A DNA stretch of 64,000 nt, taken from NCBI GenBank assembly GCA_019753105.1, contig JAIELJ010000006.1, positions 248,001 through 312,000 on the forward strand, read 5' to 3'. The notes below the pieces were generated by a model that saw only the letters and a program-made list of their open reading frames with translations, was not told where the DNA came from and did no database searches. A program made the position numbers and the translations under genes. Shown here piece after piece: positions 10,965-38,949 of the stretch. This stretch comes from Hyphomonadaceae bacterium. GTDB taxonomy: Bacteria > Pseudomonadota > Alphaproteobacteria > Caulobacterales > Aquidulcibacteraceae. Position 1 is the first letter of the stretch, and each line of letters starts with the position of its first letter.

Positions 10965-11852
10965 TTACGCTTTCTTCTCCTTCGACAGATTGTTCTGCAC
11001 TTGCAGGCCAATCGCCGTGAGGATGACGGTGACAACGATAAGCACGGTGGATGCTGCGTTGACTTCCGGCGTCACCGAGAAGCGCAGCATCGAATAGACC
11101 TTCACCGGGAACGTGATCGTGTCGGGCCCGGCAGTGAAGAAAGTGATGACGAAGTCATCGAGCGACAAGGTGAAGGCCAGCAGCGCGCCTGCAATCAGGC
11201 CCGGCTGCATATGCGGCACCAGCACATCCCAGAAGGTTCGCCATTCGCTCGCGCCCAAATCCTTGGCCGCCTCCTCCAGTTCGCGATTGAACGAGGATAG
11301 CCGCGCGCGGACGACAGTCGCGACGAACGGAAACGCGAACGAGATATGGGCGATAATGATGGCGCCCAGGTTGAGCGGCCACGGCATGCCCATGGGCCAC
11401 GGCATCACGCGCGCGAAGAAGACGAGCATCGCCACGCCGAGGCAAATCTCCGGCACCACGATCGGCAGCGCCATAGAGCCTTCGACGGCGGTCTTGCCTG
11501 GGAAACGGAAACGCCAGAGCATCACTGCGGCGAGCACGCCGAGGATCACCGAGAAGATCGTGCAGAAGAAAGCGATCGTCAGCGAGTTGAGGAAAGCCTG
11601 CAGCAGCGAGTCGTTATTGAACGCCTTCACATACCAGTCGGTGGTGAAGCCCTGCCAGACGACGTTGCGGCGGCTAGTGTTGAAGCTGAACACCATCAAA
11701 GTGATCAGCGGCAGATAGAGAAACACCAAAGTCGCGCCGACCATGAGCTGCAACGGCCAGCGGCGCATATAATCGAGCGGTCCCGGCTTATCGCGCTTCT
11801 CGCGCCGCGGGCGGCCAACTTTCGGCATCGAAGTGAGTGCTTCGTCGGCCAT
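10965..11852 (-). CDS. potC: Polyamine ABC transporter permease (PotC/PotI/SpuH type)
   Basis: A 295-residue inner-membrane permease with about six transmembrane segments. The cytoplasmic EAA loop that docks on the ATPase is visible as EEAAKDLGASEWRTFWDVLVP. The start ATG 11852 overlaps the potB stop by one base (TGATG), so translation is coupled; a longer reading upstream would lie wholly inside potB and is rejected. A basic, proline-containing N-terminal tail precedes the first membrane span. It pairs with PotB to form the channel. Confidence 0.88.
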   Translation of the reverse strand: MADEALTSMPKVGRPRREKRDKPGPLDYMRRWPLQLMVGATLVFLYLPLITLMVFSFNTSRRNVVWQGFTTDWYVKAFNNDSLLQAFLNSLTIAFFCTIFSVILGVLAAVMLWRFRFPGKTAVEGSMALPIVVPEICLGVAMLVFFARVMPWPMGMPWPLNLGAIIIAHISFAFPFVATVVRARLSSFNRELEEAAKDLGASEWRTFWDVLVPHMQPGLIAGALLAFTLSLDDFVITFFTAGPDTITFPVKVYSMLRFSVTPEVNAASTVLIVVTVILTAIGLQVQNNLSKEKKA

Positions 11853-12757
11853 CAGCCCCTCCGCTCGCTTTTGCGTTGGATGAACGCCTGCGCGGCGATG
11901 GCGATAAAGGTGAGGTACATCAGCAAGAACGAGAGTGCTGCGCCGAACGGCCAATCATTGGCGCGCTTGAATTGGCGCTCGATGACGTTGGCAATCATCT
12001 GGCTATCTGTGCCGCCGAGTAGATCGGGCGTCAGATAGGCGCCGAGCGCTGGGATGAAGGTGATCAGAATGCCGGAGGCGATGCCTGGCGCTGCAAGCGG
12101 TACGACGACAAGAAGGATTGTGCGCAGATGCCCGGCGCCAAGATCGAGGCTCGCTTCCATGAGCGAGCGGTCCATGCGGTCGAGCGCGGAATAGAGCGGC
12201 AGCACCATGAACGGCAGGTGCACGTAAACGAGGCCGATGATAACGGCGGTGTTGTTATAGAGCAGCGTCAGCGGTTCGTACTCGCCGAGCGGCTGTAGGC
12301 CGATCAACGTCATAAAGCCGCTCGCATTATTCCAAAGCCATTCGAGCGCGAAGTTCACATAGCCCTGCTCGCGCAAAACCGCGATCAGCGCGAACGTGCG
12401 GATCAGCAAGTTCGTCCAGAACGGCAACATGATCAGCAGCAACAGCCACGCCTTCGCGCGCGGTGATGCAAAGGCAATGGCGAGCGCGACAGGAAAGCCG
12501 ATGATGAGGCAGAGCACCGTGGTGATGCCCGCGACGATCAGGCTTTTTAGGAAAATCTGCAGATAAAGCGGCTCAACGGCGCGCGCGTAATTGGCGAAGG
12601 TGCCGGTGAAATCGATAGTGATCGGGCCGGTGTTCTCGCCGAACGAATAGGCCCAGATCACGCCCATCGGGACGAGGAAGAAGAGCACAAGCCAAGCAAT
12701 CGGCGGCACGGCAATCGCCGCGAACGCCGCTTTGGCCTGTTTCCACGTCTGCTCCAT
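11852..12757 (-). CDS. potB: Polyamine ABC transporter permease (PotB/PotH/SpuG type)
   Basis: A 301-residue inner-membrane permease. It has a first hydrophobic segment at about residues 13-36, further spans at about 70-95, 100-125 and beyond, and an EAA loop read as MEASLDLGAGHLRTILLVVVP. The segment SFGENTGPITIDF in the first periplasmic loop resembles PotB/PotH. It precedes potC with a one-base overlap. Between it and potD lies a GC-rich palindromic repeat, which may tune relative expression of binding protein and permeases. Confidence 0.88.
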   Translation of the reverse strand: MEQTWKQAKAAFAAIAVPPIAWLVLFFLVPMGVIWAYSFGENTGPITIDFTGTFANYARAVEPLYLQIFLKSLIVAGITTVLCLIIGFPVALAIAFASPRAKAWLLLLIMLPFWTNLLIRTFALIAVLREQGYVNFALEWLWNNASGFMTLIGLQPLGEYEPLTLLYNNTAVIIGLVYVHLPFMVLPLYSALDRMDRSLMEASLDLGAGHLRTILLVVVPLAAPGIASGILITFIPALGAYLTPDLLGGTDSQMIANVIERQFKRANDWPFGAALSFLLMYLTFIAIAAQAFIQRKSERRG

Positions 12758-12766
12758 CGGCTCCCT

Positions 12767-12841
12767 CTTGGAGCGCTGGCGTCTCGCCGGCGCTTTCCCG
12801 ACACCCGAAGAGAACCGCCGGCGAGACGCCGGCGGTCCAAG
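12767..12841. repeat. GC-rich inverted repeat element, copy 1 (potD-potB intergenic)
   Basis: The unit CCGCCGGCGAGACGCCGGCG plus GTCCAAG (12815-12841) is identical over 27 bases to one arm of the element at 15824-15917. The facing arm (12767-12792) is a diverged inverted copy (CTTGGAGCGCTGGCGTCTCG then CCGGCG, two mismatches over 26). The 22-base loop is unrelated to that of copy 2. It fills almost the whole gap between potD and potB and can fold into a very stable hairpin, a position where REP-like elements commonly protect upstream mRNA. Confidence 0.85.
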
Positions 12842-12846
12842 TCACA

Positions 12847-13950
12847 TCACGCCGCGCTGATGCGGGTGAAGATTTCTTCGTAGAGGCGCGAGCGCTCATC
12901 GCCTTCAAACGCGCCGTATTCGCTGCGCGCCATGACATCCGCCGGCGGGAAGATCACTGGATTGCCCTGATACGCAGCGCCCATACCCGCGGCGACCGCG
13001 GCGTTCGGCGTCGGGTATTGGATTTCCTCGGTGATCTTCTGCCCGGCTTCCGCATCGAGCAGATAATTGATGAAGGCATGCGCTCCGGCGGCGTTTGGCG
13101 CGCCAATCGGGATGCAGAGGCAATCTGAGTTGATCAGCGTGCCTTCAGTCGGCACGACAAAGTCAAAGTCCTCGCCGCCCTCCGCACTCATCAGCTGCGC
13201 CATATCGCCATTGTATTCGAGCACGATGTCGATTTCGCCGGACGCCAGCAAATCCTGGCCGTCGTCTTCGTGGAACGCCTTGATGTGCGGCTTCTGGCGA
13301 ATGAGCATTTGCTCGATTGAGGTCAGGTTCGCATCGGGGATGTTGTTGAGCGAAATACCCTGATACTTGGCGCAAAGACGAATGAGGTCTGCCGATTCAG
13401 AAAGCAGCGCGATGCGCTGGGTGAATTGCGGGCTGTCGAAGAGATAGCGCCAGGAATTCGGCACGAAGCCAGCCGGCATCGCACTCTTGCGATAGCCAAT
13501 GCCGAGCACCAGCCAAGTATATGGCATCGAATAGCGGCGGCCCGGATCGAAGGCCGCGTCTTGGAATTCCGGCAGCAGGTTCGACATGTTCGGAATCTGT
13601 GCGTGATCCAATTCCTGGATCAATTGCGCCTGGCTCATGCGCGTCACGAACTCGTTCGACGGCACGATGACATCAAAGCCCGGATTGCCCGCGCGCAGAC
13701 GCGCGAAGAGTTCATCATTGGTGGCGAACAGACTCATGTTCACCGTCGTGCCGGTCGCTTCGCGGAAGTCGTCCAGCGTCGTCGGGCCGATATAGGTGTC
13801 CCAGTTGTAGAAGTTGACGGTGTTGCCGCCGCCACCGCCGCCGCCGCAAGCGCTCAAGCCGCCCGCGAACGAAATGCCGACCGCCGCCGCGCCGAATTGC
13901 TGGAGGATAGAGCGGCGCGATGCGCCCCGGAGATATCTGCCCTTGGCCAT
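12847..13950 (-). CDS. potD: Polyamine ABC transporter substrate-binding lipoprotein
   Basis: A 367-residue periplasmic binding protein of the PotD/PotF/SpuD type. The N-terminus combines a twin-arginine motif (SRRSIL, Arg12-Arg13), a hydrophobic stretch and a lipobox LSAC with Cys35, followed by a run of glycines as linker; it is therefore probably a Tat-exported lipoprotein. The mature start VNFYNWDTYI is typical of PotD-like proteins, and the block FDVIVPSNEFV follows. Its gene comes after puuA2 by 67 bases and leads the transporter genes. Putrescine versus spermidine preference cannot be told. Confidence 0.88.
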   Translation of the reverse strand: MAKGRYLRGASRRSILQQFGAAAVGISFAGGLSACGGGGGGGNTVNFYNWDTYIGPTTLDDFREATGTTVNMSLFATNDELFARLRAGNPGFDVIVPSNEFVTRMSQAQLIQELDHAQIPNMSNLLPEFQDAAFDPGRRYSMPYTWLVLGIGYRKSAMPAGFVPNSWRYLFDSPQFTQRIALLSESADLIRLCAKYQGISLNNIPDANLTSIEQMLIRQKPHIKAFHEDDGQDLLASGEIDIVLEYNGDMAQLMSAEGGEDFDFVVPTEGTLINSDCLCIPIGAPNAAGAHAFINYLLDAEAGQKITEEIQYPTPNAAVAAGMGAAYQGNPVIFPPADVMARSEYGAFEGDERSRLYEEIFTRISAA

Positions 13951-14017: not shown

Positions 14018-15391
14018 CTAACAAGCACGCAAATACCAGTCATAATCAATATCTGGGATCACACTTTGGAAGCGATCTTGCTCGACACGCTTCACGATCG
14101 AGTACATCCGCACGAAGCGCTCGCCCAAATAGTCCTTGAGGATCGCGGATTCCGCGAAGCGATCGGTCGCCGCGAACCAGTTAGTCGGGATTTTCTCGCC
14201 GCCTTCGGCTTGGCTGTAGCCGTCGCCGACGATCGCCGGGCCGGGATCGGTTCTGTTGGTGATGCCATGGTGCACTGCAGCAAGAAGTGCAGCCAGCGCC
14301 AGCGCCGGGTGCGCGTCGGCGCCCGCGACGCGGTGTTCGATGTGACGCGTGTTCGGCGCGCCCGCTGGCACGCGGAAAGACACGGTGCGGTTGTTGACGC
14401 CCCACGTCGGCGCCACCGGTGCGTAGGAGTTGGCGCGGAAGCGGCGATAGGAATTGGCGTTCGGCGCATAGATCGCCATCGAATCCGCCAACAGCGCCTT
14501 CATGCCGCCGATCGCGTGCGCCAGCACCGGCTCGCCCTCAGGCTTCTCCGAGGCAAAGATATTCTTGCCCGCCTTGTCGTTGACGCTGACATGCAGGTGC
14601 ATGCCGGAGCCAGCGAGATCGGCGAACGGTTTGGCCATGAACGTCGCTTCGCACCCATGCCGGAGCGCGACGCCCTTCGCCGCACGCTTATAGAGCACTG
14701 CATCATCGGCAGCGCGCAGCGCATCGGCGTGATGCTTCAAAGTGAGTTCCAATTGGCCCGGTGCGTATTCGCTAATCGCCCCTTCGAGCGGAATGCCCAT
14801 CGCGTCGGCAGACGCCCAGAGATCGCGCAGGAAGCCGGATGCCTCCTCCACTTCGCGCAGGCCATAAACTTGATGCTGCGTGGCGCGGTCGCCAGTGAGC
14901 GGCGACGGCGGCAGTTGGATCTTGCCGTTTGCCGTGCGGCGCGCATCGACGAGGTAATATTCAAGCTCGCACGCAACGACCGGCACAAGGCCGTCAGCGG
15001 TGTAGCGGTCAATCACGCGTTGCAGCACATGGCGCGGATCGAGATCGTGCGGCTTGCCGTCCAGCTCATACATTGTGAGAGGCACTTGCGCGACGTCCGC
15101 GCCGAGCCAAGGCGCAGGCGTGATGCGGCCCGCGATCGGACGCGCGACACGGTCCGCGTCGCCATCTTCCCAAACCAAGCCCGTCGCTTCGACGTCCTGC
15201 CCCGTAATGTCATTGACCAGGATCGAGCCCGGCAGGAAGCGCCCCTGCGCGTAGACAGCCTCGATCTCATGGCGGCGCAGGCGCTTGCCGCGCGGCACGC
15301 CCGCCATGTTGGTGAACACGATCTCGAAGAACTGGATCTCAGGGTGCTTGGCGAGGAAGGCTTTGACTTCCTTCGGATCGGCGATCGTCAT
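14018..15391 (-). CDS. Glutamine synthetase-like gamma-glutamylpolyamine synthetase, second paralogue
   Basis: A 457-residue GlnA-fold protein of the PuuA/SpuB type, clearly distinct from the paralogue at 4835-6193. Conserved blocks include FMAKPFADLAGSGMHLHVS, NNRTVSFRVP and HRVAGADAHPALALAA. It probably joins glutamate to a polyamine in the cytoplasm. Its ATG overlaps the stop of the upstream aminotransferase by four bases (ATGA 15388-15391). Placement directly before potD matches the spuB-spuC-spuD arrangement in Pseudomonas. Two such synthetases in one locus suggest different amine substrates, as shown for the Pseudomonas PauA set. Confidence 0.82.
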   Translation of the reverse strand: MTIADPKEVKAFLAKHPEIQFFEIVFTNMAGVPRGKRLRRHEIEAVYAQGRFLPGSILVNDITGQDVEATGLVWEDGDADRVARPIAGRITPAPWLGADVAQVPLTMYELDGKPHDLDPRHVLQRVIDRYTADGLVPVVACELEYYLVDARRTANGKIQLPPSPLTGDRATQHQVYGLREVEEASGFLRDLWASADAMGIPLEGAISEYAPGQLELTLKHHADALRAADDAVLYKRAAKGVALRHGCEATFMAKPFADLAGSGMHLHVSVNDKAGKNIFASEKPEGEPVLAHAIGGMKALLADSMAIYAPNANSYRRFRANSYAPVAPTWGVNNRTVSFRVPAGAPNTRHIEHRVAGADAHPALALAALLAAVHHGITNRTDPGPAIVGDGYSQAEGGEKIPTNWFAATDRFAESAILKDYLGERFVRMYSIVKRVEQDRFQSVIPDIDYDWYLRAC

Positions 15392-16812
15392 GCTGCGCTT
15401 TCTTGGGCGTATTCTTCCGCGAAGCTATCGACCGCTGCGGCGAGCCGGTCAATCTGATCTCGCGTGGTCAGGGGGCTGACCAGCATCATCATGTGAAACG
15501 GCGCGATAAGGATGCCGCGATTGATGAGATAAAGGTGCAGCGCGTGATTCAGCTCCGCCTGCGCCAGAGCCGGCCGCATGGCGGCGGCGTTCTGCGGCGG
15601 CTCTGGCGCAAAGATGATCTCCGCACGCGCGCCGACATGAACCACGCGCCACGGCAGCTTGTGCTTGGCGATGACGGCGTTGAGCGCGGCGACCAGCGCT
15701 TCGGCGCCGTTGAGCATCGTGGCGTAAGCCTCAGGCGTCGCGATCTCGCGCAACGTTGCGCCGATGGCGGCGATACCCATGGCGTTGCCGGCGAGCGTCG
15801 TGCCGATGCCGGAGCGGCCGCTTCTTGGACCGCCGGCGTCCTCGCCGGCGGTGGTTGAACTTGGTGAAGCTTGCGCAGTTTTTGGGGCCGCCGCCGGCGA
15901 GACGCCGGCGGTCCAAGATTGGATGCGCTCGCCGAGTTCGGCGCTGACACCCCAGACGGCGGCGGGGAAGCCACCGGCGATGGCTTTGCCGATGACGAGA
16001 GCATCTGGCGATAAACCCCACGCCTTCGTCGCGCCACCGGGGCCAGTGGAAAGCGTATGCGTCTCATCGAGTATAAGAAGTGCGCCCGCCGTCTTCGCGT
16101 GCGTCTGCACACGCTTCCAGAACTTCTCCTCCGGCAGGATCATCCCGCAATTGGTCATCGCGGGCTCCGCCAGGATCGCCGCGACATCGCCTTGCGCAAG
16201 CGCTGCCTCCAGCGCGCGAATATCGTTGAACGGCACGGCGCGCGTTGTGCGCGTCATGTCGAAGACTTGGCCGATGAGGCCAGCATCAGGCCGCGTACGG
16301 CCGTGGCGCAGCTCGACGAAGCAATCCTCGACCATGCCGTGATAGCAACCGTCGAACACGACGATCACGGGTTTGCCAGTCACCGCCCGCGCCCAACGGA
16401 TGAGCGCGCGATTGGCATCCGATGCGGAGAGCGTGGTCTGCCAAAACGGCAAACCAAAGCGCTCCGCCAACAGCGCGCCAACATTCGCCGCCTCCTCCGT
16501 GGGCAACATGAACGTCGCGCCCCGCCGCGCTTGCTCCGCTATCGCGCGCGCGATCTCGGGGCGGCCGTGGCCGAACATGCCGGGCGTGTCGCCGAGGCAG
16601 AAATCGTCGTAAGTGTTGTCGTCGATATCAGTCAGCACCGCGCCTTCGCCATCCTCGGCGACGATGGTGCAAGGTGCGGCCCAATCGTTCATCCAATGAA
16701 ACGGCGCGCCGAAGAGCCAGTGCTCTTTCAAGGCGCCCGCATGGGCTGCGCTCTTGGGATGCGTCTCGATGAAACGCTGCGTTTCGCGGGCGATGAGATC
16801 GGTTAGCGGCAC
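15388..16812 (-). CDS. Class III aminotransferase of the glutamate-1-semialdehyde-aminomutase subgroup, with in-frame repeat insertion
   Basis: A 474-residue PLP enzyme. Landmarks are FGHGRPEIARAI, DGCYHGMVED, LDETHTLSTGPGG and the PLP lysine in VIGKAIAGGFPAAVWG. The fold is that of glutamate-1-semialdehyde 2,1-aminomutase and related aminotransferases. After ELGERIQ the protein contains about 34 residues (from SWTAGVSPA through AGEDAGGPRSG) encoded by a palindromic repeat, before the family sequence resumes at GIGTTLAGNAMG; this loop lies outside the catalytic blocks. As first gene of the polyamine operon it may transaminate a pathway intermediate. It is not a haem-pathway HemL by context. 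Function beyond the family is inferred. Confidence 0.75.
   Translation of the reverse strand: MPLTDLIARETQRFIETHPKSAAHAGALKEHWLFGAPFHWMNDWAAPCTIVAEDGEGAVLTDIDDNTYDDFCLGDTPGMFGHGRPEIARAIAEQARRGATFMLPTEEAANVGALLAERFGLPFWQTTLSASDANRALIRWARAVTGKPVIVVFDGCYHGMVEDCFVELRHGRTRPDAGLIGQVFDMTRTTRAVPFNDIRALEAALAQGDVAAILAEPAMTNCGMILPEEKFWKRVQTHAKTAGALLILDETHTLSTGPGGATKAWGLSPDALVIGKAIAGGFPAAVWGVSAELGERIQSWTAGVSPAAAPKTAQASPSSTTAGEDAGGPRSGRSGIGTTLAGNAMGIAAIGATLREIATPEAYATMLNGAEALVAALNAVIAKHKLPWRVVHVGARAEIIFAPEPPQNAAAMRPALAQAELNHALHLYLINRGILIAPFHMMMLVSPLTTRDQIDRLAAAVDSFAEEYAQESAA
15824..15917. repeat. GC-rich inverted repeat element, copy 2 (inside an aminotransferase gene)
   Basis: Left arm 15824-15851 and right arm 15891-15917 are inverted copies of one 27-base unit (one extra C in the left arm). 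The right arm is identical to 12815-12841 in copy 1. The 39-base loop is unrelated to copy 1. The element lies within the open reading frame of the aminotransferase at 15388-16812 and keeps it open, adding residues SWTAGVSPA on one side and TAGEDAGGP on the other. This resembles protein-coding palindromic elements such as the Rickettsia RPEs. Confidence 0.88.
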
Positions 16813-38419: not shown

Positions 38420-38949
38420 GTACGCTCAATCCCATCAGCGCCACTGATCTGAAGCGCCGCCTCGACGCCGGCGACGCTGTCTTGATCGATGTCCGCGAGA
38501 CCGACGAACACGCGCGCGAACACATTCTCGGCGCGCGCCTCGCGCCGCTCTCTGCGATCGATACGCACGATTTCGACCGCGATCACGGTAAGGCCGCGGT
38601 GTTTCACTGCCGCTCCGGCATGCGCACGCAGGCCAATGCCGCCAAGCTCATCGCACGCGGTTTCCGTGAGGCGTATTTTCTCGACGGCGGCATCGAAGCG
38701 TGGAAGAGCGCAGGCCTTCCGGTTCACACCAACCGCAAAGCCCCGCTCGAAATCATGCGCCAAGTGCAGATCACAGCCGGCCTGCTCATGCTCACCGGAA
38801 TTATTCTCGGCTGGTTCGTGAACCCCGCCTTCTATGCGCTCTCCGCCTTCGTTGGCGCCGGGCTCACCTTTGCCGGCGCGACGGGCTGGTGCGGCATGGC
38901 GATGCTGTTGAAGGCGATGCCCTGGAATCGCGTCAGCCTCAGCGCATGA
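38416..38949 (+). CDS. Rhodanese fused to DUF2892 membrane hairpin
   Basis: 177 residues. Residues 1-110 form a rhodanese domain with VLIDVRETDEHAREHI and the active-site loop HCRSGMR (catalytic Cys). The last 60 residues are two membrane spans of the DUF2892 type with GWCGMAMLL. The protein would move sulfane sulfur, for instance from persulfide, at the membrane. It overlaps bigR and the exporter gene by four bases each. The same fusion occurs in other bigR operons. Confidence 0.88.
   Translation: MSTLNPISATDLKRRLDAGDAVLIDVRETDEHAREHILGARLAPLSAIDTHDFDRDHGKAAVFHCRSGMRTQANAAKLIARGFREAYFLDGGIEAWKSAGLPVHTNRKAPLEIMRQVQITAGLLMLTGIILGWFVNPAFYALSAFVGAGLTFAGATGWCGMAMLLKAMPWNRVSLSA

Follow-up and report, generated by a model that had tools for sequence, protein, structure and literature searches.

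An in-frame REP doublet in a class-III aminotransferase gene

The window analysed here, a 64,000-nucleotide stretch of a Hyphomonadaceae genome of 3.87 Mb, carries a class-III aminotransferase gene on the minus strand (15388–16812; PF00202; NCBIfam NF005453, PRK07046 transaminase), of which the nearest solved structures by sequence are 5ykr/5ykt. Within this gene, positions 15824–15917 form a 94-base REPIN, i.e. two inverted REP units and a loop, coding for SWTAGVSPA...AGEDAGGPR. The two arms are 28 nt (15824–15851) and 27 nt (15891–15917) long and enclose a 39-base loop (15852–15890), and the reading frame stays open throughout, all of which agrees with the preliminary description. Each arm can additionally fold on itself, as CCGCCGGCG-TCT-CGCCGGCGG or its TCCT version; the 28-nt arm is of the latter form (CCGCCGGCG-TCCT-CGCCGGCGG) and has the outer foot TTGGA. 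An inverted pair of REP units forming a hairpin was evident from three sides: the outer 18 bases at 15823–15840 are fully paired with 15901–15918; the arm-versus-arm alignment of 32 columns contains 30 matches, one mismatch and one gap; and the minus-strand RNA of 15818–15923 folds at −67.9 kcal/mol (z = −8.19), an energy as low as that of none of 200 dinucleotide shuffles (mean −38.1, sd 3.64).

Neither arm contains a stop codon in any of the six frames, and the whole 94 bases hold one stop, in one frame of six. As the arms are stop-free in every frame and the insert as a whole causes no frameshift, the hairpin would be translated, giving a small and probably disordered loop rich in Ala, Gly, Pro, Ser and Thr. 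An AlphaFold2 model based on 32 aligned sequences had a mean pLDDT of 88.7, with values <50 only at residues 307–329 inside the insert, and so shows the latter as a predicted disordered segment in an intact aminotransferase fold. The insert is located ∼25 residues after the invariant lysine K276 and before GTT at 337–339, residues that we take to have cofactor-binding roles. The dN/dS ratios were 0.07–0.19 over 12 genome pairs (dS 0.19–1.06), and 0.09–0.19 in the five compared pairs including the window's genome, indicating that purifying selection acts on the enzyme whether or not the insert is present, and ruling out a decayed pseudogene. The translated loop may thus affect neither the folding of the enzyme nor the selection acting on it. 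About 34 extra residues had been counted at first; 34 is the length of the whole segment from ERI to GRSG, whereas the net gain over a 7-residue loop is 27 residues (81 nt).

The arms belong to a REP family of one genus

The 27-nt arm at 15891–15917 is 100% identical to 12815–12841, exactly as had been noted. The match in the potB–potD gap, initially taken for a single arm, is however part of a complete second doublet (12767–12841), an intergenic REPIN between a permease gene (11852–12757, PF00528 match) and the upstream operon gene 12847–13950, which is potD-like, the names given to this and the other operon genes being putative. A genome-wide search retrieved further copies of the unit, namely 10 matches (≤2 mismatches) in the window's genome and 1 to 245 per genome across 30 genomes of the genus at the same threshold, counts that include some units matched on both strands, while a reversed-pattern control yielded 0–2 matches per genome. 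With a stricter pattern, the unit was present in 36 of 299 genomes of the order, comprising 27 of this genus, 5 from two sister genera in the same family, and a further 4 outside these genera with one match each. By these pattern searches, the REP family appears mostly confined to one Hyphomonadaceae genus. A topic search for ‘repetitive extragenic palindromic’ in Hyphomonadaceae, a search with most subscription journals outside its scope, retrieved no literature.

In the richest relative, G022, the unit consensus is TATGGACCGCCGGCGTCCCGCCGGC, and all 30 non-overlapping close pairs are arranged head-to-head, the anatomy of REPINs; five further close-pair matches each represent one unit matched on both strands. 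The foot of the family is TGGA rather than the canonical GTAG/GTGG, and GTAG was found ≤12 bases upstream in only 2 of 107 G022 units, so the units are not REPs of the GTAG type. We nevertheless keep the wider REPIN label, because non-GTAG hairpins beside TnpA-like genes (PMC6006769) and a partial tolerance of GTAG mutations by some TnpAREP (PMC8266576) are described in the available portions of the respective reports. The 39-base loop had no complete second copy and only 12–15 base matches beyond the insert itself among the loci compared, and a reading of it as a shared REPIN loop was therefore dropped. Weak matches near window positions 38451–38477 were dropped as well, since no inverted repeat exists there. 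Related units in which GCGGGC replaces GCCGGC were seen at three loci of the window's genome (L013, L017 and L010; doublets in L013 and L017) and at one locus of G003 (L093).

Units flank RAYT transposase genes in relatives

The genome of the window had no PF01797 (Y1 transposase/RAYT) match, so the element cannot now move there by the RAYT route; matches were present in 16 of the 30 genus genomes. Among 30 RAYT loci examined, five have inverted units on both sides (≤500 bp), three of them of the window's CGCCGGCG type, one of a CTTCCAG variant and one of a GCGGGC variant, and three more loci have units on one side, compared with none of 3000 random control positions taken from loci other than RAYT loci. 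Adjacency of units to a RAYT gene, as expected of REPINs, is thus found in relatives only. In G003, the CTTCCAG variant occurs both around a RAYT gene and in the left arm of the aminotransferase insert. The motif Y[IV]xxNP was recognized by eye in all 12 RAYT frames read. From these associations, it is most likely that a RAYT mobilizes, or has mobilized, the REPIN family in trans. Two further observations concern RAYT loci: a further unit variant flanks a RAYT gene in G003 (L093), and a RAYT frame of G025 (L094, 1111–1842) encodes REP-like peptides at either terminus, as though the frame extended across the units that flank it.

Most copies are intergenic, with some in frame in essential genes

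REPs are generally thought of as extragenic, and the dispersed copies of this family are mostly so, as judged from the G022 sites among the matches listed together with the per-genome counts. In G022, the 100 of 245 places that were listed resolved into 74 sites; apart from 4 close to contig ends, 70 were retrieved, and 68 were classified by a home-made dicodon coding score whose training drew in part on these loci; among the matches listed, 57 of the 68 sites are intergenic, 5 lie at gene ends and 6 are internal. All 11 classified sites in G007 and G001 are intergenic. The proposal that such palindromes colonize genes therefore holds insofar as in-frame copies exist, but not in the sense of genes being a favoured target: by this distribution, genes are apparently avoided overall, with REP units tolerated in flexible places.

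Five of the six internal G022 sites among the matches listed are REP units, two in ileS and one each in carB, trmD and the methylmalonyl-CoA mutase gene, while the sixth candidate, in a trpD-like gene, was rejected as a chance match. The best solved homologue of trmD is without 12 residues at the insert position; the mutase, a weak case, is ∼6 residues longer than a human enzyme. In the dnaX linker, a unit was found in 17 of 30 genus genomes, including that of the window, and by motif the carB unit occurs in 2 of 28 genomes and the ileS unit in 2 of 27, with further remnants visible by eye; the reversed motif had no match in the dnaX, ileS and carB rows. One dnaX match in G016 (columns 277–284) lies outside the linker and was rejected as chance. 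With further copies in the genome and the genus, insert-free orthologues and in-frame copies in essential genes, the earlier suggestion of a dispersed palindrome family able to sit in frame within genes is borne out. A second kind of palindromic insert, also in frame, was seen in ileS at two sites (site 1 in L303, L302, L305 and L306; site 2 in L300, L301 and L306), in stretches of 114–132 nt that encode peptides like GGRADAQAPARLNAPHLPASSPQGGGG and fold at −67 to −94 kcal/mol.

Presence and absence of the insert at the same site

Across 23 genus orthologues of the aminotransferase (22 relatives plus the window's own), 11 have an insert at the same loop and 12 have a 7-residue loop. The loop of the outgroup G093 is 9 residues long, and relatives outside the genus have short loops at the insert position, up to ∼15 residues by eye; hence an ordinary loop of the protein family is ruled out, and no distant orthologue was found to share the loop with unrelated DNA. 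The net insert lengths are 81, 66, 60, 18, 21, 75, 27, 27, 69, 27 and 54 nt, all 11 divisible by three; the alleles include full doublets as well as eroded in-frame remnants, and the segment lengths form a graded series from 102 to 39 nt. That the inserts are artefacts of assembly has a negligible probability: although those genus records whose titles were inspected are metagenome-assembled, each of 11 separate genomes has an insert at this site, and that of G009 lies on a contig of 1.96 Mb.

The frame keeping also bears on whether the insert reaches the protein. Hairpins of the bypassing sort occur in T4 gene 60 and as mitochondrial byp elements, and so stable a hairpin in the mRNA (z = −8.19) might similarly be passed over by ribosomes or excised from the RNA in an intron-like way, leaving a protein without the insert. 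The frame would then be free to vary, yet 11 of 11 inserts are open and multiples of three, so we consider such skipping highly improbable.

Phylogenetically, insert-bearing and insert-free alleles are interleaved. The aminotransferase tree of 23 rows, built without G023 (split frame) and six distant genomes, requires 6 presence/absence changes, 4 of them forced by well-supported branches, and 70 of 500 label shuffles were as low, the labels being somewhat clustered on this tree; the three-gene tree of carB, ileS and dnaX for 22 genomes (11 insert, 11 free), built without G016, G028, G026 and G015 for which little data existed, requires 7 changes, 6 of them forced, with 245 of 500 shuffles as low. 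These minima count changes irrespective of direction, and G002, G008, G013 and G014 had no aminotransferase state. A single clade of insert alleles was rejected (p-AU 3.5e-32 and 6e-5). At two loci, additional features were observed: the G023 orthologue (L054), in a genome that is one contig, is split over two frames, and G007 has, just behind the gene and ∼500 bases away from its aminotransferase insert, another unit of that insert's variant (L154, 2779–2801).

Arms, loops and junctions, and a probable repeated turnover

In the six longest inserts, the two arms differ from each other by 0–3 mismatches and 0–3 gaps. Between genomes, a comparison of left-arm codons 1–5 in 7 of the 11 insert genomes (without G007, G003, G022 and G005, which have a different start, another variant or an eroded arm) found third positions identical at 99/105 (94%) in the arm versus 869/1659 (52%) in the flanks, second positions at 79/105 versus 1501/1659, and first positions at 105/105 versus 1394/1659. 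This high third-position and low second-position identity indicates that the arms are not conserved as protein, being either young or held as nucleic acid.

The junctions have a pattern of their own. Ile-Gln (I-Q) precedes the element in 8 of 11 insert alleles, where insert-free alleles mostly have I-A-A-V-P or similar, and on the right the flank is PR in one clade and xxQ in the other, for insert alleles and for most of the insert-free alleles of that clade alike. A one-base bulge is common to G000, G018 and G007. Among 15 loop pairs, G018–G007 are similar (p = 0.002) and G000–G009 weakly so (p = 0.028), the other 13 being without similarity at p < 0.05. As read from these alignments, the junctions argue against wholly independent fresh insertions, and the bulge and the loop likeness suggest shared descent among some inserts; taken together, some of the inserts are probably related by descent.

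Such continuity would follow if a single old insertion, already present in the ancestor of the genus, had repeatedly been worn down to a 7-residue scar without loss of frame, while compensatory change, conversion or template switching maintained the palindrome in the lineages that kept it. The I-Q junction of 8/11 insert alleles, the PR or xxQ flanks common to both allele kinds within clades, the bulge of G000/G018/G007, the G018–G007 loop similarity and the graded segment lengths from 102 to 39 nt all speak for this course. It would, however, need ∼8–10 separate losses on the carB+ileS+dnaX tree by our count, most of which would have to end in AAVP-type loops in both main clades; 13 of the 15 loop pairs are dissimilar; and the third positions of the arms have hardly diverged whereas about half of those in the flanks differ. 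We regard a single old insertion as possible but rather doubtful, and weight recurrent turnover about twice as heavily as one old insertion with many losses.

Our preferred reading, to which we assign a probability of about 0.8, is that the insert is a REPIN of a genus-biased family mobilized in trans by RAYT, translated as a harmless loop and subject to repeated turnover at the same site. Genome comparisons show that the element has REPIN anatomy and belongs to a family, that orthologues without it exist, that the frame is kept, that 11/23 orthologues have inserts at this site, that RAYT genes in relatives are flanked by such units and that further copies lie in frame in essential genes; on this footing, a REPIN would have entered a loop of the class-III aminotransferase, the same loop would have gained, lost or swapped elements repeatedly across the genus, and most same-site cases would be separate events as opposed to one old insertion lost many times. 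A further-reaching possibility, which we hold to be unlikely, is that the loop acts as a reversible docking site, into which a RAYT would repeatedly insert hairpins, and from which it would precisely excise or exchange them, at one codon position and without shifting the frame. Species would then alternate between loops of 7 and of 13–34 residues, with the hairpin kept as nucleic acid inside the gene; the matched changes in both arms and the little change at third positions are what would suggest the retention as nucleic acid.

Relation to known palindromic elements

REPINs with their RAYTs are known as inverted REP doublets that are mostly extragenic (PMC3116915; see also PMC2817692). The present elements resemble the system of PMC3116915, so far as its accessible text goes, in the inverted doublet hairpin, the units beside RAYT, the mostly extragenic location and the changes on both stem sides; they differ in the foot, TGGA here and GTAG/GTGG there, in the set of in-frame copies in essential genes and in a host genome (that of the window) without RAYT. 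In-frame intragenic REPs are as a class already published: Di Nocera 2013 (PMC3733652) reports, in the part available, GTAG and CGTC REPs and their dimers inside known proteins, tRNA synthetases and DNA replication/repair genes among them, and REPs at about the same recB site in two Xanthomonas species. Relative to that part of the report, the tags are different here and gain and loss at the same site are followed genus-wide. What is new is a REP family with a TGGA foot and its same-site turnover across one genus.

The preliminary description had likened the insert to Rickettsia palindromic elements. The likeness holds for the behaviour, an in-frame position within genes including essential ones, and intragenic RPE-4 and RPE-6 have been described as CGTC-tagged REPs (PMC3733652, in part); it fails for the CGTC tag, the A-T first stem pairs and the 4–5 nt loop. 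Of 107 G022 units, only 10 have CGTC ≤12 bases upstream and 16 have CGTC or GACG on the downstream side, so there is no constant tag; by reading, the first stem pairs are C-G instead of A-T and the loop has 3–4 nt instead of 4–5; and the units here adjoin RAYT genes, whereas the available text of PMC3733652 gives the CGTC REPs as without RAYT association. We therefore think it extremely unlikely that a true Rickettsia-type element (of the RPE-4/6 kind) or a Wolbachia element is involved, and keep to a REPIN. RPE-4/6/7 similarly occupy the same locus in orthologues with the frame intact, for which the authors left open a hotspot versus a common origin (PMC3767692, as far as available); different from that account, insert-free orthologues are interleaved within the genus here, and RAYT genes with such units are present.

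One genus with 23 genomes offers the same protein loop with or without the element, plus RAYT genes flanked by such units and in-frame copies in ileS, carB, trmD and dnaX, and makes testable both how selfish hairpins become protein sequence and the question left open for Rickettsia in the accessible part of PMC3767692, insertion hotspots versus single old insertions.

With regard to the foot, a parallel exists with class 3 TnpA elements, given in the available part of PMC6006769 as atypical hairpins with a CnGA foot that lie close to a Y1 HUH gene and can reach high copy numbers. The foot ending in GA and the atypical hairpins near a Y1 HUH gene are alike; the 12 RAYT frames read by eye all have Y[IV]xxNP, in contrast to the class 3 signature Y----Q. 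With TGGA being neither GTAG/GTGG nor CGTC and the protein motif unlike that of class 3 by eye, we regard the family as a variety of its own within an already known kind of element.
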